Source of the DNA: Tubiluchus corallicola
Lineage: Eukaryota; Priapulida; Priapulimorpha; Priapulimorphida; Tubiluchidae
Direction: 5' to 3'
Assembly: GCA_030141605.1 (NCBI GenBank)
Contig: JAQGDQ010000008.1
Coordinates: 508,501-572,500 of the forward strand
Length of the DNA stretch: 64,000 nt
How positions within the stretch are numbered: position 1 is the first letter of the stretch; the number at the start of each line of letters is the position of its first letter. Shown piece by piece: positions 7,971 through 58,000 of the stretch. The translations under genes and the position numbers were made by a program. The notes beneath the pieces are model-generated. The model was given only the letters and a program-made list of their open reading frames with translations. It did no database searches and was not told the DNA's origin.

Positions 7971-8611
7971 GGCGATTCAATTGTGTTGCTTGTGTCTTAT
8001 GCATTAGATTAGTTACATAATTTATATAAACATGCATGGTCTACTGTAAAATATGCACTTCAACACCAAAAATCCATTGTATCTAAGCAACATAAAATGG
8101 CATTTTTGTAACAAAACAAAAAATAAATATTATTGTCGGTAACTATTCCTGTTGTTAATTCTTAACCATATTTTCCACTCTGTTATGTTCAGTGAGCAAA
8201 AGTGATTTTTTATTAAGCAGAAAAGCGATACAGTTGCCTTTTTGCATGTAAAAAATATTAGGTGAACAGATTTAGTACTTTATTACAGTTTTTCTGTTAT
8301 TTTGCAATGATAACCAAATGCATAACCAGCTGTGCTATGAAAAAATTAACTGGTTTATCACCATCTTAGCCATAGTGTATGGAAATAGAAAGGCCTTTCT
8401 TAAGTCACTGAAGCAATTTTAAGCACTTATTATAAGAGCCGTTATATTAAAAATTACATACCGAAACATTAATTCATTCAGATTAAATACAACTTAGCCT
8501 TCTTTACATTTTATTGAAGGTAAAGACTGAAAATCCTTGAATTAGGTAACAAATATTAAGTGACTTGCATTGACAACTAACTGACAATGTTTCAGACGTG
8601 ATCAGAAACTG
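7971..8611. other. AT-rich intergenic DNA, nothing recognised
   Basis: No exon, RNA gene or clear repeat is recognised between the LINE fragment and the tandem-array element. Confidence 0.4.
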
Positions 8612-9686
8612 AATATTTTGCAAACAATAGTTGTAAAATTGAGCCTTAAAAATGAAGAGACGATAGTCTTTTTTGAAAGTACTTATTTTCTTTTATTGAA
8701 TTCTCCTTGCTTGAGTACATAGTCCATTTCACAATGAAATCTCAGCATTTAACTGTTCAGCCCGTCACCCACATGTTAAGAATCAACCAATCTCCACATA
8801 TCTTATATCAATTAGTTTGTCTCATTGAGACCTTGCATTTAATACACTACAAGCTCGTTTCGGTTGACAGTGAAAGGCACTTGTCTCCTCAACCCCTATT
8901 TTGTCCCCTAGTGGGGTCACAGGTTAACCATTCTCATTGTAAGCAGTGCCATTTGATTCGTCTCATCGAGGCCTTTTATTTGACATGGTACTATTCGTAC
9001 GCACTCGATTCATTTATGTTCCCGACCCCCAGTGTTCGGTTTGTAAATACTGGGGTCAGAGATCAACCTTATGCCATTCAGTTTGTCTCGTCGACTCCTA
9101 TTTTGCCCCTATTGTCATTGTAACCATCATAAAACCATGTTAACTATGCCGTTCAATCTGCCTCATCGAGACTTTCGTTTGATATTCTACAAGGCACCAT
9201 CGCTCGACACTCGGTGCACTTCTGTTCCCGTAACCCTGTTTCCGGTTCTTGCCCCCTAATGACAAGGCCACGACCCCACCTAACAACATGCCAAATATTG
9301 TGGCCCTGCTGAAAATCTATGGGAGCAGATGATTATAAAAGAATAAATGTAGACCTGCCCGCTCCGTGACCTTTTACCCGGCAGCTCGTGTCACACGTAT
9401 ACATAAACAACTTTGCCCAGAGAGTGCACCCTGTGAGTTTCGTGTCCCTAGGCCTCATGTAAAAAGGCACCAATTGGGGGGACTTCAAATTTTGCATTTT
9501 AGCCCCTCCCTCGGGCGTTTAAAGCTTGTCGGCTTTTTAAAACCCTAGGTGCACATCTACCTCACAGTACCCAAATACTTGTTAAAAAAAATTGAAAAAA
9601 CGGAAAACGCTAGGAGGAGACGCGACTTAAAGGAAAAACTGGCCGATGCCCACTGCCCTTCCCCCCTTGCTACAGCAAAATCTTAA
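8612..9686 (+). mobile_element. Non-autonomous element with central tandem array, copy 1
   Basis: The left end AATATTTTGCAAAC is preceded by a small stem (GTTTC..GA/TCAGAAAC). The right end is GCAAAATCTTAATTAT. The middle carries diverged monomers marked by TCTCATTGAGACC, TCTCATCGAGGCC and CCTCATCGAGACT-type boxes at about 8821, 8957 and 9162. The single-copy right part (9270-9660) matches the reverse complement of 34440-34680. Compared with the other two copies, it lacks the GGAGAATAAATA region before the right end. There is no protein-coding capacity. It looks like a pearl/HINE-type non-autonomous Helentron, by inference from the layout only. It ends about 235 bases before the DDX1 start codon. 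Confidence 0.65.
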
Positions 9687-31542: not shown

Positions 31543-32742
31543 TCATTTTTTATTAGACTTAATGCCACGTCTATCCTCTCTTCGTAGACTGTTAATGCCA
31601 GAATGTCCAGTAAACCTTGCTGCATCATTTGGAGCACTGGGTGCAGACACCTGCTGCAAGCGGCCCAGTCCTTCTTGATCCCTTGCAAGAGGGCGCGGTG
31701 AATTGGGAACTGCGCCAGCACCGCCTGAGCCAGTCTGCAACTGAAGCTGATCCGTCCTCATCCTACCACTGCTGCCCGTGCCTAAAAGTGCCCTGGTTGA
31801 ATGGTGGGCTCTTTCGCGTCTATCTCTATCCGTCTCCTCTGTATTACGAGCACCACCAAATTTTAACATGTTCCAATCGAAAACATAATCATACGTAAAA
31901 CCCTGCCGATGAAATAAGTTTCTGTATAGCTGACGCAAATAACTATAGTCTGGTTTGTCATCAAACCTAAGTGAGCGACAAAAATTTAGATATGTTGCAA
32001 ATTCTGATGAGTAACTTTTACACAATTCCTCAATCGGCGTGGACATTTTCTTTTCGCTGATTCGTTCATACTTCTGACGTTTGTTGGCAGCTTTTAGACC
32101 CTGCCACGGCAGACTTCCTCGATTAAAATACATGAGCACGTATCCAAGAGACTCGAGATCATCCCTCCGACTTTGTTCTATTCCCAAATGGGTATTAATT
32201 GAAGCATAGCGCGCTGTACCAGTGAGATTTTTATTCTCTCGATAAGGAATATGTTGATGGGTACGAGGATCACGATACTTCTTTGCTAACCCAAAGTCAA
32301 TAATGTAAACCAAGTTGCCTTTCTTGCCTAAACCCATGAGAAAATTGTCAGGTTTCACATCTCGATGTATAAAATTTTTTGAATGTATATATTCAACACG
32401 ACTAATCATTTGATCGGCTAGCAAAAGGACAGTTTTTAAACTGAATTTTCGATTACAGAAATTAAAAAGATCTTCTAGACTTGGCCCTAGCAATTCCATC
32501 ACCATAACATTGTAATCACCTTCTGCACCACACCATTTTATTGCTGGAATTCCAACCCCGCCTTGCATCATCTTATAGAATTTACTTTCGATGTGTAATT
32601 GAGGATGCTTCGTTTTAACACATTCAAGCTTAATAGCCACTTCCTCTCCATTCGTTATGTTTGTGCCTAAGTAAATATCTCCAAAAGAACCACTGCCTAT
32701 TTTTCTACCAAGTCTGTATTTGTTGCCAACTCGAAGCTCCAT
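31543..32742 (-). CDS. CSNK1D: Casein kinase I delta/epsilon-type protein kinase, intronless
   Basis: Ser/Thr kinase of the CK1 delta/epsilon class (clock, Wnt and DNA-damage substrates; cytoplasm, centrosome, nucleus). The ATG at 32742 gives [20 protein letters not shown], the invariant class N-terminus, 399 aa in one exon. A GTG two codons upstream is in frame but not a likely start. Visible residues: glycine loop GSGSFG (16-21), VAIKLE with Lys38, HRDVKPDN catalytic loop, [42 protein letters not shown], and a Ser/Arg/Gly-rich tail of about 100 aa, the usual autoinhibitory region. The segment FNRGSLPW has Arg where the class normally has Leu. A TTTTTAG acceptor-like site lies just upstream (about 32752), so a 5'UTR intron is possible. 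D and E paralogues cannot be separated here, so the symbol stands for the shared ancestor. Confidence 0.95.
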
Positions 32743-33109
32743 TTTCACCAGTCTAAAAATTAGAATTGGTGAAACTCTTAATCATAAGAAACATGCATTA
32801 TCAACGTCTCGACGTCTACGTATTGTAGCATTGCCGCTTCATTAATATAACTTTTTCACCGTCGAAATTTTCCACGGGATTATACCGATTTTCAGCTGCA
32901 AGCTCTGATATCGCCATTATGATTCATTGTGAATCATCGATTATTTGATTACACGACGAAAATTCTTTCTTCACATAACTAAAAAAAATTCCAAGCGGGT
33001 AAAGCTTTTTTAATTAAAGTACTCGCAGTATAACGTGATGATATTATACACTAATTTGTTGGAATTTGTCAAATTTCGCAAAACCAAGAAAATTAACCTT
33101 TTGTTCGTC

Positions 33110-33540: not shown

Positions 33541-34222
33541 TGTAAAACATTATATAATATATTACTTTATACATATTACTGTTACGGTGTCTGTTCTTAA
33601 TAATAAAAAAACTGCTAAGTTGAAAACTTGATATAATTTGCTGCAACTTGTATTTGTATTTTTTGGACATCTTTAGTTACAACTTACAATTTAGTTACCA
33701 TTTGAATTTGTGCTTGGGTTTATTTAGCTAGCAATCGACAATTTAACTATCACTATTTGTCTATTAACAAGGCTTTCTGACATAAGCAAGCATTTTGCTG
33801 TGTACTAATTATTAAATCAACGATGAAGTTAAAACTTAATAAGACATAGACAACTAGTCGCAGTAAGACCGTGGAATAACAGACCGGAGTTGTCTCTGTA
33901 AAGAAGAGACAACCTGAGAATGAAAAAATTAAACGTATGCCATATTGCAGACAAGCAACGAAGCTTAAGAAGAACTTCAAAAGTCGTGCCTGCGTAAAAA
34001 TTTGAAATTTTGATCGTTGCGATGATCAGTTTGCTACATGGAAATTGAGAAGTGGTTACTCACAACGTGTGTGATTAATGTTCCCCTGTTTTTGAGGTAT
34101 TTTCTGTTATAACCATACGTATTTTGTGTGTATATGTTACTTGTATTATCCAATGATATTTGCGTTTGCAACATTGTCCTCTTCGCTTGTTGCGCTAAAC
34201 AAACCTGCCGGGTCACTAAATC
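33541..34222. other. AT-rich intergenic DNA, nothing recognised
   Basis: No exon or known repeat is recognised between the microsatellite and the tandem-array element. Confidence 0.4.
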
Positions 34223-35409
34223 TAAGTTTTAGCTAAATTCTTTTAAGTGTGTAATAATTACTGTTTTTCATTGAGTTATTTATTTATATTTATTCTCCGC
34301 CACTTCAACGCTTAATAATTCGTAAGTCTTGCAAGCCAGGCTCACCAACCTCACAGGGTAGGTAGCCCTGGGCGGAGCACGTACAGCAATTTAGTAACCG
34401 CTGATCATTGATCAAGGGGGAAGGGCAGTGGACGTTGGTCAGTTTTTCCTTTATGAGTCAACTCCTCCTAGGGCTTTCGTTTTTCACAAGTATTTGTGTA
34501 CTGTGGGGCAGGTGTGCATCTGGGTTTTTAAAAAGCTGACAAGCTTTAAATGTTCGAGTGAGGGGCCAAAATGCAAAAACTGCTCGCACAGTTTTTGAGC
34601 TACTATTTGGTATGTAGCTAGGTGGTGTCGTGGCCTTGCACATGACAAAATATAGCACATGCGCATATAGCCAAATTTTCCACTAAGGGGCAAAAATCGA
34701 AAAATGGGGGTCAGGAACAGAAGTTTGATCAATGGTACTTGTAGCATATCAAATGAAAGGTCTCGACGAGGTGGATCAAATGGCATAGGTTACAATGAGA
34801 ATAGTTAACCCGCAACCCCGCTAGGGGGCAAAAACGGAAAAATAGGGGTCGGGAAGTGAAGTGCACCGAGTGTTGAGCAAAGGTACCTTGTACCATATCA
34901 AATGAATGGTCTCGATGAGGCGGGTCGAATGGCATACGTTGCAATTAGAATAGCTAGTGTGCGAGACCTCTAGGGGGCAAAAACCGAAAAATGGGGGTCG
35001 GCAACAGAAATGCATCCAGTGTCTACGAATAGCACCATGTAGCATATCAAATGAAAGGTCTTGATGGGGCGAGTCGAATGGTATAGGTTACAGTGTGAAT
35101 CGTTAACCTGTGACCCAGTTAGGGGCAAAATAGGGGTCGAGAAGACAAATGCCTCCCAGGGTCCATGAAAAACAGGTTGTTGTGTATCAAATGAAAGGTC
35201 TCAATGAGACAACCTGAATGATGTAAGCTATGCCAAGATTGTTGACCTTTGACCTGTGGGTGATGGGCTGAACAGTTAAATCCTGTGGTTTCGTTGTGAA
35301 ATGCACTTTCCATTTATTCAAGCAATTCAACAAAAGAAAATAAGCACTTTAAAAAAAAGCTGTCATCTCTTCATTTTTGAGGCTGGATTTTATTGTTTGC
35401 AAAATCTTC
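34223..35409 (-). mobile_element. Non-autonomous element with central tandem array, copy 2
   Basis: The most complete copy, inverted relative to copy 1. Four monomers are marked by CATATCAAATGAAAGGTCTC-type boxes at about 34745, 34894, 35043 and 35188, a period of about 149 bp. Each monomer also carries TAGGGGGCAAAAACGGAAAA- and GGGGTCGG-type boxes. The single-copy part 34440-34680 matches copy 1, and 34260-34400 matches copy 3. On the minus strand the element starts AAGATTTTGCAAAC (with GTTTCTGAC/GTCAGAAAC stem just outside) and ends in a degenerate palindrome at 34223-34247. Short reading frames across the monomers are artefacts of repetition. Confidence 0.7.
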
Positions 35410-37470
35410 AGTTTCTGACTGCGTCAGAAACATTGTCAAATAGTTTAGTTTGATTTTCTTCTGTTGCTTTTTCCTTGGTTCGACTATTAGAGCTTTTTTC
35501 TACAGCCTGGAGTGGCGAAGCTTGTGGCAGCTTCTTTATACGCCTAGCAAGCAGTCTTTGTCCAAAGAACAGAACACATGCGATCGTCTTAGGGGCTAGG
35601 GCAAACCAGATTTACGGAAGAATGTTGTACTCAACTTTGCTTTATACCAGACTGTACAAATAGATGCAGAATTATGTAAATTACTAAGACCAAAGGTGTG
35701 CCACTCATCTGCTATTTGTGCTGCATATTTCAAAAAGCACTTTAAAATCAAGTGCTGACATTTATAAATTAGAGAAAACGAGGAATCTTAGAGCAAATTA
35801 AAGTGGTATAATTTAAATTTACAAATTTCAAGAAGTATTAAAATCTAAAGTGAAATATTCGGGTAAAAGAATTGAATTTAATTAGAGTCATATTGTTCAG
35901 TAAGGGTGGTACATTAATCTTAGCGCTGAAAATTTTAGAAAGGTCTTGCTCCTTAATCTCTAGTACTCCTGCATTCTTTCAATGCTCTTATTCAATGCAT
36001 TTTAAAAAGGAACGGAAATCGGCGAGGGATAAAGGGGCAAATTTCATGGTTCTAGCAGTCGATGCAGTCATTCATAATGTGGTAACGTTCTGTTCTGTTT
36101 AATTCTTAACTGTACAATATTAATTTTTGTTCAAGCATTAATATGACCAAAAAATGTTTGTAAACTTACTGTATGTCAGTGAATTTTTACCAGTATGTGT
36201 GCTCAGCTGCACTTGCAAACTTAGCAAAACTTGTGCTCTGGTCTCTGATTCTAGCTGTTTACTTCATGAGTTAAGGATGCATACATCCGAACGTGGCTAA
36301 ACTACATCTACCAGTTCAATGACCTTGTCTTAGATACGGTGCCTTGATAATGACAGTGATGATCATCATCATTGTTGAATTACAGTTGAATGCTTGATTC
36401 AAACCTGCATTGTACCAAACTTTATAAATATCAGTACTCACACTGGTAGCAAAAATCAGACTCCTTATACCGGTCGGGTACCCGACGGTTGAGATTTAAT
36501 GCCTGTGAAGAAACTGTAATCATTTATATTCACAAATAAAAACAACCACTGGTGCATTTAACTAACTGCACTGTTATGTTAACAACAAGCATTCGTTTAT
36601 TACACCCTGAAGGCCTGAACACGAGCTGTGTGTCGCAAAAGTTAGTGTTTTCCCCACACTCAAATTTTTGCATGCCAAACAGACCTTAATTACTTATATG
36701 CACGCTTTGTCAATGAGTCGGCTATGGCACTGAGCATTATTAATGTTGCTATGGAATAAAATTATCTATACTCCTTTTTGTGTGCTGTTAAACCTAACAG
36801 TCCGTTTACTTGTATCTTTGTTAGTGCCCCGAAATAGGTTTTTAAAGGTTAATAAACAGTTTCATTTGGATGATTAACCTCTTAGTAAAGAAATTATAGT
36901 TTGTTTTTCATACATCACTCCTACAGCAAAAATGGTTTGATCTGTCATCTCCCTACTGGCTTTTGGGGCACAGCCAATGCAGCAGTTGATAGTTTGCTAG
37001 TAAGTACCTACTATAGAAGCACAAAACAGAAAGTGCCATTTAAATTTTAAATTCTCCAACAGTGGATACTGTGTTACAAATGTTTGCATTTTCATTGTTG
37101 GAACCGACTAGAAATAGGCTCGTGCGTGTGGGCATGTTTTCATTACACGAATATGCTATACACACACGTAAGAAATTAAAAACAAAAATTTGTAAGTTCC
37201 AGATTGCTGTCAACTTCAGAATGATTTGGTTTTAAAAAATGCTTTAAGAAGTCAACAGATGGGGTGTGAAATTAGACTGTTAGGGTACAGTGATAATGTA
37301 CAAGATCTGGAGTGGATATTAATGGAAAGCTGTAGATAGCTCGCCCGTAAAAAATCTCACATTAGTGGAATAGATCTCCAGCTAGTTGTCAGTTTTAGTT
37401 CATATGTAGAATAGAATAGAGCTAATTGGAAGCAGTTCATTGTGGACTGAATAATCTTTTTTGGGAATTG
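35410..37470. other. Intergenic DNA upstream of the GH1 gene
   Basis: No gene is recognised. Frames at 35475-35663 and 35872-36102 have no family signature. A SINE tail at 36270-36430 and a 14-bp GC-rich palindrome (GTCGGGTACCCGAC, 36473-36486) are the only structures seen. Confidence 0.5.
36270..36430 (+). repeat. SINE tail fragment
   Basis: TGCCTTGATAATGACAG and TTGAATGCTTGATTCAAACC match the reverse complement of the copy at 41395-41530 (TGAATGCTTGATTCGAACTT). Confidence 0.45.
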
Positions 37471-37483
37471 CAGAACTTTGAAG

Positions 37484-37708
37484 TAAAAGAAACATAAAAT
37501 GGCTGCCTTAAACAAAGAGGAGGATGAAATGGCTGCCTCGGAGAAAGAGAAACATAAAGTGGCAGCTTTAAACAATGAGGAAGACAAAATGGCCAACTGG
37601 AAAAAACAGAAACATAAGATGGCTGACACGAACAAAGAGAAATGTAAAATGGGTACGTCTAACAAAGAGGAAGAAAACCTGGCTGCTCCAGAATCGTCAA
37701 AATCTCCA
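37484..37708 (+). repeat. 30-bp (10-codon) coding tandem repeats at the GH1 N-terminus
   Basis: Seven 30-bp units code the first 70 residues of the GH1 protein. Two unit types alternate at first (NKEEDE-like and EKEKHK-like), so there is a 60-bp higher order. Part of a further unit lies upstream of the start codon, behind a stop codon. Confidence 0.85.
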
Positions 37709-39139
37709 ACACTCGATAAACTAGCCTCAGCTCAGTCATCTGCAATTTTTCCTGAGGGCTTTAAGTGGGGTGTAGCAACAGCTTCATATCAGATAGAGGG
37801 TGCCTGGGACAAAGATGGAAAAGGTAAAAGTGTGTGGGACGTGATTTCTCACTCTGGGCGAATTGCAAACCAAGACACAGGTGATGAAGCTTGTGACAGC
37901 TACCACAAATGGCAAAACGATATTGAACTCCTAAAACAGCTAGGCGTGCATCATTATCGATTCTCTATTAGCTGGCCTAGAGTTCTGCCTGATGGTACGA
38001 CATCTTACATTAATCAATCGGGCATCGACTACTATAACAATCTAATAACGTCCTTGTTACAAGCTTCCATAGAACCTTGGGTAACAATCCATCACTGGGA
38101 TCTGCCTCAAAGTCTACAAGATAAATACGGTGGTTGGCTGAGCACTAAAATAGTGGAGGACTACGTCAATTTTGCAGACGTGTGCTTCGCAAACTTCGGG
38201 GATCGTGTGAAAGTCTGGATAACAATCAATGAACCTTGGATGATTGCAATCGACATATATGGCACTGGTATCATTAATCCGACTGACTTTTCAACCGGAA
38301 CAGATGCTTACAAAGTGGGACATAACTTGATACGTGCACACGCTGAAGCTTACCATCTATACAATAACAAGTATCGTTCATCTCAACATGGACGAGTGGG
38401 AATTACATTGGATAGTCGATGGATGGAACCTGCAAGTAAAACTGAGAAAGATCACGAGGCTGCTGAAACTGCCCAACAGTTTTTCCTGGGTTGGTTTGCA
38501 GAACCCATTCTCAGTTCTGGCGATTATCCAGCTGTTATGAAACGGAAAATATTGCAGAAGAGCAAAGAGCAAGGATTAAGAGACAGTAGACTTCCGCAGT
38601 TTACTGTGGGAGAAGTTGAGAGAAATAAAGGCACTGCAGATTTTTTGGGTTTGAACTACTACTCGGCGTACATGGTTAAACCGCATAAGGAGTTAACGAA
38701 TAAACCAAGTTACCAAAGTGACCAGGATGCACTGCTATATGACGAACCATCGTGGCCTAAGTCAGGATCAAAATGGCTAAAGGTTGTTCCTTGGGGACTG
38801 CATAAGTTGCTGTGTTGGATACGCAATCATTATAAGAACCCAGTTGTGTACATAACAGAGAACGGATTCTCGGATAATACAGGAGAACTGCAAGATGATG
38901 ATCGGATTAACTATCTCAAGCAGCATATAGAAGCCATTCATCAGGCAATAAATGAAGGCTGCAATGTCAAGGGTTATACGGTGTGGAGTCTAATGGACAA
39001 TTTCGAATGGATGGAAGGATATAGAGAACGGTTTGGCATATTTCACATAGATTTCAAATGTGAGTCGAAGACACGAACGGCAAAAAAATCAGCTATGTGG
39101 TATAGTAGATTAATTCAAGACAATGGGATTTTTGAGTGA
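37499..39139 (+). CDS. Family 1 glycoside hydrolase (beta-glucosidase-like) with N-terminal decapeptide repeats
   Basis: GH1 retaining beta-glycosidase, 546 aa in one exon. The barrel starts near residue 80 with FPEGFKWGVATASYQIEGAW and runs to the C-terminus, the normal GH1 length. The acid/base Glu245 is in TINEPW and the nucleophile Glu454 is in YITENGFSD. Substrate-site motifs HHWDLPQ and the late VWSLMDNFEW are intact, so it should be active. There is no signal peptide, unlike secreted digestive or lactase-type members, which suggests a cytosolic enzyme. Residues 1-70 are seven Lys/Glu-rich ten-residue units (MAALNKEEDE, MAASEKEKHK, VAALNNEEDK and so on). The ATG at 37499 is preceded in frame by TAA at 37484-37486 and then Lys-Lys-His-Lys codons that look like the end of another unit. 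ATTGCAG at 37465-37471 could be a 5'UTR splice acceptor. Confidence 0.93.
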   Translation: MAALNKEEDEMAASEKEKHKVAALNNEEDKMANWKKQKHKMADTNKEKCKMGTSNKEEENLAAPESSKSPTLDKLASAQSSAIFPEGFKWGVATASYQIEGAWDKDGKGKSVWDVISHSGRIANQDTGDEACDSYHKWQNDIELLKQLGVHHYRFSISWPRVLPDGTTSYINQSGIDYYNNLITSLLQASIEPWVTIHHWDLPQSLQDKYGGWLSTKIVEDYVNFADVCFANFGDRVKVWITINEPWMIAIDIYGTGIINPTDFSTGTDAYKVGHNLIRAHAEAYHLYNNKYRSSQHGRVGITLDSRWMEPASKTEKDHEAAETAQQFFLGWFAEPILSSGDYPAVMKRKILQKSKEQGLRDSRLPQFTVGEVERNKGTADFLGLNYYSAYMVKPHKELTNKPSYQSDQDALLYDEPSWPKSGSKWLKVVPWGLHKLLCWIRNHYKNPVVYITENGFSDNTGELQDDDRINYLKQHIEAIHQAINEGCNVKGYTVWSLMDNFEWMEGYRERFGIFHIDFKCESKTRTAKKSAMWYSRLIQDNGIFE

Positions 39140-39299: not shown

Positions 39300-40129
39300 A
39301 AGATTGTACAACAAACAAAAACATAATTGCTAAAAAGTATTTGTATACATGTTTGTTATCTGTAACCCTGCTATACTATCAGTGATTTTCTGCAAGAGGT
39401 GCTACACGTTTACAGAAAATGCACTAGTATCAACGAATGCCATTAAGTACTCAAGTACATTTCTGACTTCTCACCTCATCAAACCTAGTAATGGCTTATC
39501 ATTACTAACAGTAACATTATTAATTCTTTTACTTGGAACAATTTTTGTTAGCTGTAACATGGTGAGAGATGGTCAATGCTTTTTCAGCAATTAATTATTA
39601 TTACAGTATATAACTGCTGCTGAAATGGACTGTTTTAGCTTAATGCAACATTCATGGATGTAGGTAGGTTGAAAAATTTTAATTGAACAGTTCAAAATTG
39701 GTGCAGTCGATAACAATGTGTGCAGTATACCTATTGTAGTTGACTAGACAAAAACAAACTTCTTTTTAATAAACAAACCAGGTTCCGTTTCTTTTTAATG
39801 CACAAACCATATAAATAATAATTACAATTTAATTCTGTTCATTTTAACTGCCAAACGTTTTAGTGGCATTAAAACCATTCGCACTGCTAAGTCAGTAATT
39901 CAGAGCGATTTTAGTAACATTGCCTTATACAAGTAACACACAGATAACTGAAGTTTAACAGTTGTGGAATGTCATATGGGGGTTGTATCATAAGAACAGA
40001 AGATGCTGAACATCTCGCATTAGTCCTAGACCATACTTCTACTAGTTTGTTTTCTTTCCAGATAGAGCCTGAGCCAAACGGGGAATTAACAGACGAGCAC
40101 TACATATTTAGTCAAAAGAAAGTTTTGAA
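39300..40129. other. GH1-EXOSC3 intergenic region
   Basis: A 61-codon frame at 39969-40154 overlaps the EXOSC3 start by 25 bases in another frame and has no family signature. TTTTCTTTCCAG before 40061 could be a 5'UTR splice acceptor for EXOSC3, which would remove most of that frame. The 81-codon frame at 39349-39594 has one hydrophobic stretch but no support. Confidence 0.4.
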
Positions 40130-40840
40130 ATGGCAGAACAAGTTGGAAAAGTAGTACTCCCAGGTGATATTTTACAGGCAATACAAGAAAAAAACTCCAG
40201 ACAAAAAATAACTATTGGACCAGGACTAAGGCGAGATGGTCAGAAAATATATGTAACCAAATGTGGCATATTGCGGCAGCGAGAGCTGTGCGTGTTTTGG
40301 GTCGACTGTCATCAGAAACGCTACGTCCCAGCCAAGAGCGACAACGTGATAGGTGTGGTAATGGCAAAACAGGGCGATTACTTCCGCGTCGACATCGGAG
40401 GCAGCTCACCAGCATCATTGTCGTATCTGGCGTTCGAAGGAGCAACAAAAAGAAATCGTCCAAACCTTAATGTCGGTGATCTTGTCTACGCCAAACTGTT
40501 AGTGGCAAATAAAGACTGTGAACCGGAACTCGTGTGTATTGATCACTACGGTAAAGCATCCGGATTGGGGATTTTGCCCTCCAGTGGTTTTTTGTTCTGC
40601 TGCAGCATTTACTTGGTCCGAAACCTTTTATCTGTGGATTCAGAGCTGTTGAAACTTCTGGGAAAATCAATCCAATACGAGATCGCAATCGGCATGAATG
40701 GCAGAATATGGCTTCAAGCAAAAACTGCGCGGGAAACGATAGCGTTAACCAATGCAATATGTACCTCAGAACTGATGAGCAAGGATGAAATTCGGACTTT
40801 GTGTACAAAGAAATCGTACTTGCAAAATAACAGCTTTTAA
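40130..40840 (+). CDS. EXOSC3: Exosome complex component RRP40, intronless
   Basis: Cap subunit of the RNA exosome (nucleus and cytoplasm), which threads RNA into the nine-subunit core. The protein has 236 aa in one exon, slightly short of the human 275. The N-terminal domain has VVLPGDIL and GPGLRRDGQKIYVTKCG. The S1 domain has RYVPAKSDNVIGVV and the very conserved SYLAFEGATKRNRPNLNVGD. The KH domain has the family GMNGRIW motif (GxNG). The start at ATG 40130 gives MAEQVGKVVLPGD, in line with the family N-terminus. A shorter linker after the N-terminal domain accounts for most of the length difference. It is convergent with RCC1L on the other strand. I saw no frameshift and no missing core motif. 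Confidence 0.95.
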   Translation: MAEQVGKVVLPGDILQAIQEKNSRQKITIGPGLRRDGQKIYVTKCGILRQRELCVFWVDCHQKRYVPAKSDNVIGVVMAKQGDYFRVDIGGSSPASLSYLAFEGATKRNRPNLNVGDLVYAKLLVANKDCEPELVCIDHYGKASGLGILPSSGFLFCCSIYLVRNLLSVDSELLKLLGKSIQYEIAIGMNGRIWLQAKTARETIALTNAICTSELMSKDEIRTLCTKKSYLQNNSF

Positions 40841-45000: not shown

Positions 45001-48000
45001 GTTTATTATAATAGTTTCTAGCTTTCCATTTTTCTGCTGATAATGATTGCACAAGTACACTTCTGGTGTCTAATGATTTTAACTTATCTTCAGATGTGAC
45101 ACTGCTAGCCGTCATGTTAAAGATACCACACATACAGTATCTCACAGCAAAATCCATCATGTGCACCATGAATACCTGCAGGATGCAGCATGTACTTCTG
45201 ACTTTGGACAATGTGGCAAATTCTATCCACCGTACTATCTTCATTAGAATGCTTGGCAATTTATATGTACAACAGTTATCAAAACACCCTGATCAAGGCT
45301 TTCACAAAAGTCAAAATGAAATGCAGCTAAAAATGTCAAACAAAGGACTAAGTTCCAAGGTAACCATGGCAGGAAGTGTTGGGAGTGTAGACAATCACGA
45401 AACTGTGGTAAGAAACAAAGCAGATGTGCGAACTACATATGAACATTATTTGCAAAACATGCTAAACATAAGAAATACTGATGCAAACCAAATTCGCAAG
45501 ACAATTCCAAAGATTGTTAATATTCCATATGCTAGATTAGCTGCCACAATGAACAAGTTGCAGGAATTGGGGTTTTGCAAAGAAGAGATAATAAGGAGAC
45601 CACCTGTTTTAATGTTGAGTGCAGACTCAATACAGAGCAGAACTGTTGCATTTCAAGATATGGGACAGAATCCTGTCACTGTTGATATGCTGGTTTACTA
45701 CAAAAATATTACTTTTGACACTGGAGCACACAAGAAGTATTTAAATAATCTCAATGTATTCCACAACAGCGTGGAAACACTAGGGTGTAGCCAAGACTTT
45801 GTGGATGGTATCTTGCAGAAGTATCCTGGTATCCAGAGTTCTTCAGTGCTGACAATTCGCAAAGTGTTGAAACAAGAATACACACGCATGAGATTAAATA
45901 TAGCTGATGAAGAGGATATTCCAATGGGGATTACCACAATCAACCTATCAACTCTTCGAGAAAGATTAAACTTCTTGCTAAATAATGTGAAGTACAGCGA
46001 CGAGAAAATCATCAGGAATCCTACTTTGTTAAAAACTAATGTAGAGCTCGCAAAACAGAACATAAATGCTCTTTCAGAATTCTTCGGATTAGATGCACGC
46101 GTGATAATAAGAAAGTTTCCACTGCTCTGTGCAATTCAGACCAATACCATAACAACTACTCTTGAACTTCTGACTAATGCGGGCATGACAAAAGAGCAGA
46201 TATTGTCATCGATAAACATTTTAACCCTGTCACCAAAGACCGTAAAGAAAAGGCTGGAAAAGCTGCCTAAAATCCCAACGCTTCACCTTTTGAGGCATGA
46301 TCGCACATTTGTGAAACTGGTATTTTACTTCAAAAAAGTGGTACGAAGACTCCGACAGTTGCGTGACCTAAAATATCCATATATATCTACCACACTTCTT
46401 TATACATCAGAAAACAACTATCTGCAGATGATTAGAAAGGGATGGAATATTGGTGCATTTCGGCAATCTGTCTTACATATAATGAGTAAGTGTCCAGGAA
46501 CAGAAGAAAGGGTGATAACAGACACACTGAGATTCCAGACACGCCATGTGCGCTTAGTTAACATTTTTAACACGAGTGACGTCATGGAATTCTTATTTTC
46601 CAAAGGAGTGACTGAAGAACAATTTTTGTCAGCTGTTGGAATTGTGCAGTATGACTTACAGCTGGTAAAATCTCACTATGAAGCTATGACTGAGATGAAG
46701 GAACTGCAGCCATTTGAATCACTGTGGCAGCACCATCCTAATTTGATTCACCTTTTGATATATTATATCGAAAAAGACATGGGTTATCTGGAACTGGAGC
46801 ATTCAAAGTTTGAATATTTCACACCAGCATATGCCAAGATCGCAGACGCAAGCAAAGAACTAGATTTTGTAGATAATGACCAAGAGACTGAAGAAGATTT
46901 TCAAGAGGAAGATTTTGAACCAATGGATTTATCCCCAGAAGACTGGTACAGTTAGAAAACTGATCGATGTACATCGAACCTTGATTCAGCATGACACAAT
47001 CAGCATGTGAATCACTGTGCTGCATTTGTAAAACCTCAACATTTCAACATCCAACTACTATTCAGTTGCTAAAACATTGAGTACGAATATAGATGATGCT
47101 AATTGTGGCAATAATTGGTGGCCATTAAGTTTACTACAATTATATTAATTTTATTCTTTTTAATGTAAGACTATTCTAGACAATAGTTTCAGTAACATAC
47201 TGTTTGTGTTTCTATCAAAGAATTTGTGACTGATTTTCCACACATTCATTTGTTATCGTTTAAGTGAAATAAAATTGATGTATAAACCAATATAACATAT
47301 ATGCAATACATATATAAAGTTAACCATGCTAAAGAAACACGAAACAACATATCACCTATATTTTTCTCCTTCAACAACTGGACGGCCACACTGCCCAAAT
47401 TTATTGCTGCCAAGGCTGAAAGCTCCTTCTTTGTCTGTAAGTACGATAGTGTGGGATCGCCCACAAGCTGCTTCAGTAACCTTTGTCTGCTGGTCTATCA
47501 GTGGCAGTTCTATGGGTCCTGGCTGTGCTAGCAACTGTAAACTTATACCTAAACAATTATAGTTCCGTGAAGTAAGACAACCAAAATCCGCTGATTACAT
47601 TTCAAAAGACTGTGATGTTTGTCAATCTTTATCGATGTTTAGAGGATTCGTTCTATAAGCTTATAATGTAGTATGCTTTTGCATATTTTTTAGGAATCCG
47701 AATTCATGTAACTTCACTATAAAGATCACCTGGATCACCTGTAAGATTTTGAGATCCTGTAAGACACACTAGATATTTACAGTAAAGCAGTGTTAAACTT
47801 ATACACTAGACACAAAATGAAATTAGCTTTTCTACTTCTCTACTGTCCAAAAATTTTACTTTAAATAATTACAAATAAAATTTAAGAATTGAAATACCAA
47901 ACAAATTTAACATATATGCCAGTGTATAACAGTCATAATTGGTTCTACATCTATTCGCACTGTGATTTTGATTAATAACAGATTCTTCATAAAGTAATAT

Positions 48001-52171: not shown

Positions 52172-52316
52172 ACCTAAAAATGTCATGCACCTGTAAGTAA
52201 ACTTGCATTTTTAATAAGGGGCAGCTGATCAAGTGACAAATAGGTCTTTCGCTACTCTTTCTCTGTTGCAATGAAATGTAAAAATAAAAAAGAAAATAAA
52301 ATCGAATTGAATTGGT

Positions 52317-52480
52317 CAGCGGTTGCTATACGATTGTACGTCCCCCGCCCTGCGAGTTTGGCGACCCTAGCTTGCAGGGCTTACGAGTTACTAAGTGTTA
52401 AAGTGGCGGAGAATAAATAAATATTATGAACTCAATGAAAAACAGTAGTAGTACTAAGATTTTGCTATAGCAAAATCTTA
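52317..52480 (+). mobile_element. Non-autonomous tandem-array element, 3' end fragment (copy 3)
   Basis: TCAGCGGTTGCTATACGATT through AAGTGGCGGAGAATAAATAA and CTCAATGAAAAACAGTA aligns with the reverse complement of 34255-34405. It ends with a perfect 26-bp palindrome at 52455-52480 (half-site TAAGATTTTGCTA), the intact version of the end seen in copies 1 and 2. The tandem array is missing. Confidence 0.7.
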
Positions 52481-52719
52481 ATTATCGGAAACACTTTAGC
52501 ATTATTATAGGTGCTAAAACATAGATATTGCTGTATTTCAAAATGGGGTAGAACATGAAAAATCATCCTGTCTTCCTTTAACTTAAAATTGAATAACCTT
52601 ATAATTTCATAGCTATATAGATCAGAATGCTGGCATTGATGGAATGATGTTTAAATAAACTGAACAGTGGTTACATGGAAGAAACAAGTGGTTTTATGTT
52701 AAGTGGTTTTAAACAGAGA

Positions 52720-55031: not shown

Positions 55032-58000
55032 ATGGCGTCGTCCTTGTCGGGTAATTTGTCAGAACCATATAGTCAAGGAAAGAAGTATGAAAGATTTAAT
55101 GAAAGTGCGGAAGATGCAGGACAACGTCATGGTCAACCAATGAAGCCGGTACCTTAGACTAGGCAAATTTTAGCTTGCTAATTGATTTTCAATGGGCGTA
55201 GTACTAATACTATTGTATTGGTTGTACTGTCTCGCCTCTTCTTACAGTCTCAGGCGTGCGGAAGGAGTTAGCGGTGTTAACTCACCTTCGTGGTGAGTAA
55301 ACCCTGATTTCCGTCTCTTGCACCAATCTCTCATCCACTGAGTGGCTATCCAAATCACACACTTGTCCAGTTGTTCGTTGTTGGTTTACTCTCCTTCTAA
55401 TATACCCACTGCACTGGTATTAAAATAGGAGGTTTCTCGCACGGAGTTCTGAATCAAGTTTATGTTTGAAACTATTTACATTATTTTCACTCACTAATGA
55501 TTCTGGTAATGAGTTCCACAGTATTACTTCGGCTTGTGAAAAACTATGCCCAGACTTTTCAGTATTAACCCTATGCTTGTAGTTGTACAATTTAACACCA
55601 TGCCCACGTGTAATGCTTCTGTTTAGTGTAAAAAAACTGGTTTGCATTGATGTCAGTAAATCCCTTAAGAATCTTGAACATTTCAACAAGTCTCCCCCTA
55701 CGTTTTCTTGCAGAAAGTCGATACAAGTCTAATTTTTGCAAATATGAGAGTCCTTCACAACCTATGATCATGTCCACAGCTCGTGCTTGTACCTGCTCCA
55801 CAGCACGGATGTCCTTGAAATAGTAAGGGTCCCATACCTGACTGACCCTATTCGAGATGAGGACAAATAAGAGAATTGTATAGTGGGAGAATTAGCTCAG
55901 TTCTTCTGGAAGTTATGGTTCTACTAATTAATCCAAGGATTTTGTTACTCTTAGTAATTTTCTTAGAGACATGACTTCAAAAATTTAGTTTACTATCTAC
56001 TAACAGTCCAAGATCCACCTCCTCAGTGACTACAGGCAAATCAGCATCACCAAAGCTGTATGTGGCTGGATTGGTCTGATTACCCTCATGCACCACCTTG
56101 CATTTACCATCGAGTGTGTTAAATTCCATCTGCCATTTATCAGCCCATGCACAGTCTTCTTGGAGCTGTCTCACTTACATAGAACAACATATTGGATATG
56201 CTAATTTGGTATCGTCAGCAAACTTGAGTAGCCGACTAACTACATTATCATCCATGTTGTCAATGAAGATGAGAAATAACAGGGGTCCGAGGACACTTCT
56301 TTGTGGCACTCCTGATAGAACTGGGACGGTAGAAGAATTACAACCCTTGACTTCGACATATTGGAATCTGTCACTTAGCCGTGCTGTTACCCAGTTAAGC
56401 AGGCTGTCCTTGAATACCATATGCCTCAAGTTTAAGCAGCAATCTTCTATGTGGGGCTTTGTCAAACTTTGAACGTTGTTCGGATGTGTTTTGCAATTTG
56501 GCAGATTTTAGCTTAAAAGCATTGATTAAGTGTGTGAATTTTTATCAAGTTAATTGTAAACTAGGCATATATATAATATTTTTTCCTTATGAGTTTCCCA
56601 CGGTTCGTGTAAAGATGGAGATGATTTGAAGTTTAGGCTAATGAAACTACTTCATGTTTGGGATATCTCTCTTTTTTAACAAAGAATAAGTTTATTAACA
56701 TGAGGGTACTCTGGAAAAAAGCTAAGTCGGGATAATTAGCCAATAATAACATTCACTAAAAATCAATAAGAGATTAGCAAATTTAAGCAAGATAATTTAT
56801 AGCATACTAATTAGTAATATTATACTTACTAACTTGATATTATAGACAGATAAATGTAATTGTTACAATTACCAACTTAAGGTTTTTGTTTTTAGACTAA
56901 AATTATGAACTGCACTACTAGTGAAAGGGATGCAGCAGTAGATAATAAGAGGTACATCCAGGACTCATAGTGACTTGGTGACTAAAGGCAGCACAGATTA
57001 TTTACTAACAATTTTTTTTCACAGGGGGTAATTAGCTGGATTTAGTTTGCCAACACGCATAACATTGACAATAAATAATACTTACAAGCGCAAACTTATT
57101 GTTCTACAATTACCTAAATTTAACACTCAGCTTTGATGGTAATTAAGAATGTCAAATGAAAAAGAGAATGGCGAAAAGGTAAGCAGAAAAATAAGTCGGG
57201 TTGAAAAGGCATTGTGTGAATTTGTGCAAGTTGATGATAGTGGAATGCAAATGAACAAAGACAAAGTGAGTAGGAAGCCAGGAGAACAAAAAGTTCTGGA
57301 AGGAGATGAAAACAATGAAGATGAAGATGAGGAGGTTAGTTGGAATGAAATTTGTTCCAAGTATGTTAAAAGAGTAAGAGTTGGTGAGGATAGAATGAAG
57401 TGTGCATGGTGTGAAGAGTGGCTACATAGAGAATGCATAGGAATGTCTAAAAGAGCTTACAAAGTCGTAGGAACAAGCAAGTAAAAAAGTGTGGACGATA
57501 CTTTCCATTGGTATTGTGAAGTATGCAAAAAAAATTTAAAACTGTGAAAGAAGGTGTAAGCCTGGCTGTATAAAAATTACAAAAACAGCAAGAAGTTTAG
57601 GTTGACGATGGAAAAGTTGGAGTTGGTAAAAACTTTGGCAGAAACAATAGAGAATAGAATACATAAGGAAGAAAATGAGAAAATCAAGAAAAAAGAAGAA
57701 GTAGAAAAGAGGAAACTACAGAAAGAGATGGGTGATTATAAAACAAATCTGGAAAAAACTGAGAGAGAGCTTATTGAAACTAGACATAAGTACAATCTGG
57801 CACAAGATTACGTCGAACAACTAATGAAATTAAATTTAGAGTTAGAACTGGAAATAAGTCAAGGGAAAGTTCGGAGAAGCAAAACTGATGAAGAAAACAA
57901 CAAAAAGGCAAGAGAAATAAGTGATAAAATCAAGGTGATCAACTAGAAAAACCCTTGATAAAAAGGAGAAAGTGGAATGAAACGAATTAGAAATTAATTA

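Follow-up and report, generated by a model that had tools for sequence, protein, structure and literature searches.

Introduction

Among the known transposable elements closest to the family described here are the central-array elements of oysters, Cg_HINE and the pearl elements. In Crassostrea gigas, Cg_HINE combines a 5' subterminal inverted repeat (subTIR), an inverted repeat, a microsatellite-like stretch, a short central array, a 3' subTIR and a palindrome; the array has a fixed orientation and few monomers, monomers of 160-180 bp dominate, and a preference for TT targets has been reported (PMC7492417). The cited sections of PMC4067079 describe HINE/DINE-1 elements more generally as having subTIRs (the 5' one palindromic in mite HINEs), a 3' subTIR followed by a palindrome, no ORF and optional tandem repeats, and as inserting at TT in T-rich targets, with variable numbers of T, no target duplication and no CTRR terminus. 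According to the same sections, Rep motif 2 reads RGS in Helentrons and RGL in Helitrons, and a Phytophthora proto-Helentron, autonomous and ~14 kb long, has TT at its 5' end and CTAG at its 3' end, with A|T insertion and no target duplication; no subTIRs or central array are described for it there. The lepidopteran non-autonomous Helitron Hel-2, as portrayed in the cited part of PMC4344730, has a 5' inverted repeat, subTIRs, a 3' hairpin, a CTAG end, A/T flanks and a tetranucleotide microsatellite; it starts with 5' TC and has a 250-bp consensus, and that part mentions no central 149-bp array. In Helitron2 elements, by definition, the terminal inverted repeats are asymmetric and each end has a hairpin (PMC5148889).

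Here we analysed a 64,000-nucleotide stretch of the Tubiluchus corallicola assembly (C215:508501-572500; hereafter the window), in which an earlier note had recognised three related places and interpreted them as a non-autonomous Helentron family of the HINE/pearl type. Our results indicate a new family of a well-known kind. We are highly confident in its assignment to the non-autonomous Helitron-like (rolling-circle) transposons, with a HINE/DINE-type layout and hundreds of old copies.

Structure, abundance and copies in the window

The element has the structure TT-AAGATTTTGC...GCAAAATCTT-CAGTTTCTGACnnnGTCAGAAAC-ATTGTCAACTAG, with family ends TTAAGATTTTGC...GTCAACTAG. The 5' end, TTAAGATTTTGC(C/T)ATAGCAAAATCTTACTGTTTTTCATTGAG, passes into a TTATTTATT-rich stretch, and its clean terminus TTAAGATTTTGC is found in copies 1 and 3 as well as genome-wide; the 3' end, read from ~30 loci, is TTGTTTGCAAAATCTTCAGTTTCTGACCACGTCAGAAACATTGTCAACTAG. 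From the 5' end, the order is TT, the subTIR AAGATTTTGC, its complement 4 nt further on (making a hairpin), a microsatellite-like, T-rich stretch (in the copy L059 an expanded (TTTC)n), a unique block, the array, a second unique block, the 3' subTIR GCAAAATCTT, a 9-bp palindrome, ATTGTCAA and CTAG. The 5' hairpin folds at -9.5 kcal/mol (z -6.3). The 3' palindrome, with a 9-bp stem and a 3-nt loop 12 nt from the CTAG end, folds as DNA at -7.8 kcal/mol (z -3.1; in copy 2, -4.3). The HINE-like layout noticed earlier was borne out: we observed subTIRs, a 5' inverted repeat, a T-rich stretch, a central array of ~150 bp units and a 3' palindrome. This conserved palindrome is the small stem that had been placed outside one end, and it lies within the element.

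We then searched the 343.5-Mb assembly for these ends. The exact 21-bp 3' end occurred 77 times and its reversed pattern never; allowing ≤3 mismatches, there were 199 matches to the 35-bp 3' end and 112 to the 5' end, with no match to either reversed-pattern control. Ten shuffles of the window gave a single 5'-like match and no 3'-like match. The 77 exact 3' ends against none for the reversed pattern, together with the shuffles, indicate that the family ends are not due to chance. Pairing of the ends listed yielded terminus-to-terminus elements of 280-2748 bp. The genome-wide search with copy 2, proposed in the earlier note, returned 591 candidate places, of which 40 were scored. Full copies diverged by 7-13% from their own consensus and had a mean mutual likeness of 83.5%; the family is therefore old. 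It is an interspersed family with defined ends, represented by hundreds of worn copies.

Self-comparison of the window confirmed that the three places are related in sequence (copy 1 and copy 2, 67% over 1126 columns, E 4e-125; copy 3 and copy 2, 74% over 149 columns, E 4e-23). They do not all share both ends, since copy 3 is a 5' fragment lacking the 3' end, and its AAGATTTTGC/GCAAAATCTT pair is the 5' hairpin rather than two element ends. The 3' boundary had been set ~34 bp short of the point where the copies end in ...TAG (35443 in copy 2, 8577 in copy 1). Copy 2 diverges by 11.3% from the family consensus, and its own 5' end is degenerate (CTAAGTTTTAGC). In copy 1, a deletion has removed block A and the hairpin's second arm at the 5' end, joining the 5' terminus to GGGGGGAAGGGCAG. 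As previously reported, copy 2 has no ORF (none ≥110 aa was found in it), and a scan of the window for Rfam families and tRNAs found none. The coordinates of the copies, together with the other genes and repeats observed around them, are listed in Table 1.

Table 1. Element copies, their parts and neighbouring features, in window positions.
Feature	Position	Strand	Details
Copy 2, whole non-autonomous element, 1222 bp	34222-35443	+	5' terminus decayed; 3' terminus ATAG; flank TTT
Copy 2, degenerate 5' subTIR and partner	34222-34251	+	By-eye alignment to TTAAGATTTTGCNATAGCAAAATCTTACTG
Copy 2, central array: lead-in partial, 3 full and trailing partial monomer, period ~149 bp	34680-35306	+	TRF and monomer profile
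Copy 2, 3' subTIR GCAAAATCTT	35399-35408	+	~35 bp before 3' terminus
Copy 2, 3' palindrome GTTTCTGAC-TGC-GTCAGAAAC	35411-35431	+	DNA fold
Copy 2, 3' terminus ATAG (family CTAG)	35440-35443	+	Target T next
Copy 1, 1110 bp	8577-9686	-	5' terminus intact (9686 inward); 3' terminus TTAG at 8577
Copy 3, 5' fragment only, no 3' end	~52313-52481	-	5' hairpin TTAAGATTTTGCTATAGCAAAATCTT at 52456-52481
Casein-kinase-like protein kinase	31543-32781	-	Host gene
Glycosyl hydrolase family 1	37487-39139		Host gene; 30-bp tandem repeat at its N-terminal end
RRP40 exosome subunit	40112-40840		Host gene
mTERF	45015-46955		Host gene
Non-LTR retrotransposon reverse-transcriptase-like ORF fragments	1940-2704 and 56175-56507 (minus)		YADD/FADD motifs by eye

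Insertion target and search for an autonomous partner

Among 25 distinct 5' ends, 21 had an A before the TT (p 1.5e-7 relative to base composition), and a T followed CTAG in 41 of 43 distinct 3' ends. Empty sites were available for one copy, L012 on C716, and for one internal case, L007. When the flanks of the C716 copy were joined, they aligned with nine paralogous empty sites as ...CTTGAACTAA|TTTAT..., which confirms both termini and leaves the Ts as the sole ambiguity. The empty sites themselves (L079-L087, on C1428, C1946, C1204, C1451, C648, C469, C1507, C798 and C1924) are members of a different dispersed repeat family, ≥120 bp long (TTACTTTGCTTTAACAAATTAACAAA...), whose members are ~80% alike. 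The L007 copy lies inside a tandem repeat of 42 bp, the intact unit of which is CTATAA|TGAATT; because this empty unit has a single T, a duplication of TT is excluded there. The simplest statement is that a TT...CTAG element was inserted between A and T without target duplication, and these boundaries give copies 1 and 2 their limits in Table 1.

Direct repeats around two copies were considered as long target duplications. Those at L007 were rejected, the local tandem repeat being present there, and L030, itself 5'-truncated, apparently lies between two copies of another repeat.

An alternative is that the family is a true HINE, derived by deletion from a Helentron with an endonuclease and inserted at TT, as for Drosophila DINE-1 or oyster Cg_HINE. 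The subTIRs, the palindromic 5' subTIR, the 3' subTIR ~35 bp from the end and followed by a palindrome, the T-rich part and the central array all correspond to HINEs as described in the cited sections of PMC4067079 and in PMC7492417, and the Ts flanking both ends are usually two. Against this, the 3' terminus is CTAG, the target is A|T, and the empty site at L007 has one T only.

The Pfam domain Helitron_like_N was found at one place (C2069:9053-9544, 1.4e-47), with short relatives on C1731 and C5, and C2025 carries a PIF1-type Helitron helicase, of which C659 has a decayed copy. A single Rep motif 2 could be read in the genome: VTEFQKRGL, which is of the RGL type and is truncated right after; its link to the family is putative. 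A GSP in the Rep of C2069 was rejected as a Helentron signature, as it belongs to another motif and the diagnostic motif 2 position reads L. The Rep part on C2025 falls in a run of N (from ~228 kb upward), and its ORF stops just past the helicase; the 0.7 kb that follow contain no ORF large enough for an endonuclease. Where the contigs with Rep/helicase remnants (C2069, C2025, C659, C5 and C1731) could be read, they carried none of the family ends listed, and the sequences downstream of the remnants (L071, L077) had no ends in common with the family. Likewise, no autonomous partner was found in the 10-kb stretches upstream of three odd-bodied 3' ends (C4, C968, C723).

Other PIF1 matches, on C493, C869, C2119 and C1247 (L073, L074, L076, L078), lie on bacterial-looking contigs, where purM-like, NhaA-like and TonB/SusC-like ORFs were recognised by eye beside a RecD-like helicase. 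The assembly thus includes bacterial sequence, from a contaminant or a symbiont.

Because neither a Helentron-type Rep nor an endonuclease after the helicase was found in the readable sequence, and given the CTAG end and A|T insertion, descent from a true Helentron is possible but rather doubtful. Of the earlier classification, the rolling-circle class and the layout stand; the Helentron label is not supported.

Asymmetric ends and composite copies

Several copies are composites. Stacked 5' ends were observed on C64, C676, C762, C1738, C1744, C2301 and C2307, mostly spaced by 48-67 bp, and where they could be read, the next copy in the stack begins at A|TTAAG, within the preceding copy's T-rich stretch. 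In the two cases tested (C762 and C1744), a single 3' end was followed by non-element DNA, with no remainder of the outer copy. Plain nested insertion was rejected at both, because that remainder would be expected past the 3' end. Conversely, in 5 of 43 distinct 3' ends a second unit followed within 1-6 bp, starting in the T-rich stretch and lacking the 5' hairpin; the first units of L002, L008 and the C859 pair (L028/L055) each had a single 5' end to their left among the listed ends. Nested insertion followed by deletion is a possible origin of the composites, which look like products of rolling-circle transposition out of nested copies.

A tandem-repeat-bearing MITE moved by a cut-and-paste transposase is very unlikely. 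Elements with short inverted repeats near both ends, no ORF and small deletion derivatives, as in this family, have often been called MITEs. However, its inverted repeats are asymmetric, lying 2 nt from the 5' end and ~35 nt from the 3' end, and stacked 5' ends occur among the listed ends, while stacked 3' ends do not. We looked for target duplications and for transposase-type terminal inverted repeats and found neither; the nine empty sites and L007 need no target duplication, which largely refutes a MITE.

Deletion derivatives were also present, C968 being a short one comprising both ends. C723 and C4 are 3' pieces with no nearby 5' end. Directly upstream of the lone 3' end on C4, a thioredoxin-like exon was seen by eye in antisense (L064 ~8633-8890), reflecting either gene capture or a chance neighbourhood. 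Some groups of contigs share element copies, with identical spacing or match scores: L008, L009 and L010 (C1753, C1309, C156), which also have identical flanks, and further C2016, C2136, C2140, C2209, C1796 and C45, C2048, C2100, C2197, C2212. All these groups are either unmerged haplotypes or segmental duplications.

The central array

TRF detected a 149-bp period in copy 2 at 34740-35130, and the monomer profile matched element positions 459-1085, corresponding to ~4.2 monomers, in agreement with the four monomers of ~149 bp counted previously. In the census of monomers per copy that the earlier note had suggested, the number varied by whole units from 0 to ~7 in a fixed phase; in nearly all copies the array runs from profile position 78 to position 127, with 0 to ~6 full monomers in between. 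Likeness was 80.8% for monomers that occupy the same position in different copies, compared with 66.9% for those at different positions within one copy, and only 5 of 95 monomers had their closest relative within their own copy. Four copies (L060, L044, L047 and L059) have no monomer and yet keep the ends, the 5' ends of L047 and L059 being imperfect. As same-position monomers (81%) are closer than own-copy neighbours (67%), the array is cargo inherited with the element and is not homogenised as a satellite is. That the family is satellite DNA in short scattered arrays with incidental flanks as ends, to which the satellite-like monomer length points, is scarcely credible given the fixed junctions, the monomer-free copies with ends, the lack of homogenisation within arrays, and the size of the arrays at the best 40 places for the monomer (≤~9 monomers, the longest ~1.3 kb), none of which was a long satellite array without family ends.

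Discussion

The family combines features of several groups. As in the Helitron superfamily, there is no target duplication, the target dinucleotide is fixed and a 3' hairpin lies just before a CTRR terminus, but the 5' TC terminus of canonical Helitrons (Helitron1) is absent, the family starting with TTAAGATTTTGC. SubTIRs near both ends and a 3' palindrome are as in Helentrons and HINEs, and the lack of an ORF, the tandem repeats, the T-rich target and the absence of target duplication are likewise common to the HINE/DINE-1 elements of the cited PMC4067079 sections, from which the family differs in its CTAG end and A|T insertion and in that a Helentron partner was not found. Cg_HINE (PMC7492417), to which it is likened by layout, has the same order of parts and an array of few monomers in fixed orientation, but predominantly longer monomers than the 149 bp found here, and TT rather than A|T as its reported target. 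Both termini, the A|T insertion and the lack of target duplication are those of the Phytophthora proto-Helentron, as described in the cited sections; Hel-2, in the part of PMC4344730 cited, is similar in its 5' inverted repeat, subTIRs, 3' hairpin, CTAG end, flanks and microsatellite and differs in its 5' TC and its length. Asymmetric inverted repeats with hairpins at both ends also agree with the definition of Helitron2 (PMC5148889), whereas insertion between TTTT and T or C does not, the left flank being A in 21 of 25 ends. The terminal inverted repeats and target duplications of TIR transposons and MITEs were not found, nor, among the best 40 places, were the long homogenised arrays of satellites. 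The CTAG terminus and A|T target fit a Helitron or proto-Helentron rather than a Helentron, and we class the family as Helitron-like and non-autonomous, with a layout of the HINE type, rather than as a proven derivative of Helentrons.

For this Helitron-like family, we infer the following steps of transposition. A Rep/helicase supplied in trans would nick at the 5' TT end and displace one strand, which would stop at the 3' palindrome and CTAG and be pasted between A and T. Within the 5' part, the T-rich stretch would offer the element a good site for its own insertion. Where one copy is nested in another, transposition that starts at the 5' end of the outer copy and terminates at the 3' end of the inner one would give copies with stacked 5' ends; transposition that starts at the 5' end of the inner copy and passes its terminator to reach the outer 3' end would give a second unit without 5' hairpin. 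The 149-bp monomers are carried along, and their number changes by whole units.

We tentatively propose, as a quite possible reading, that the family retains the two reciprocal outcomes expected when nested copies undergo rolling-circle transposition, namely stacked 5' ends that share one 3' end, and a single 5' end with a 5'-less second unit past a bypassed terminator. The T-rich 5' stretch would then act as a self-targeting landing pad, and the end type would be intermediate, with a HINE layout and TT...CTAG ends.

The family is clearly delimited and unites a HINE-type layout (subTIRs, hairpins and a central array) with the CTAG ends and A|T insertion of Helitrons, a combination that had so far been linked to proto-Helentron intermediates. 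Its fixed-phase arrays indicate that satellite-like repeats can spread as cargo without homogenising. The composites are the most useful feature of the family, as they give genomic evidence on the polarity of rolling-circle transposition, with a 5' start, a 3' stop and occasional bypass. If the proposed origin of the composites is true, the family would be a natural record of initiation and termination sites in Helitron-like transposition.
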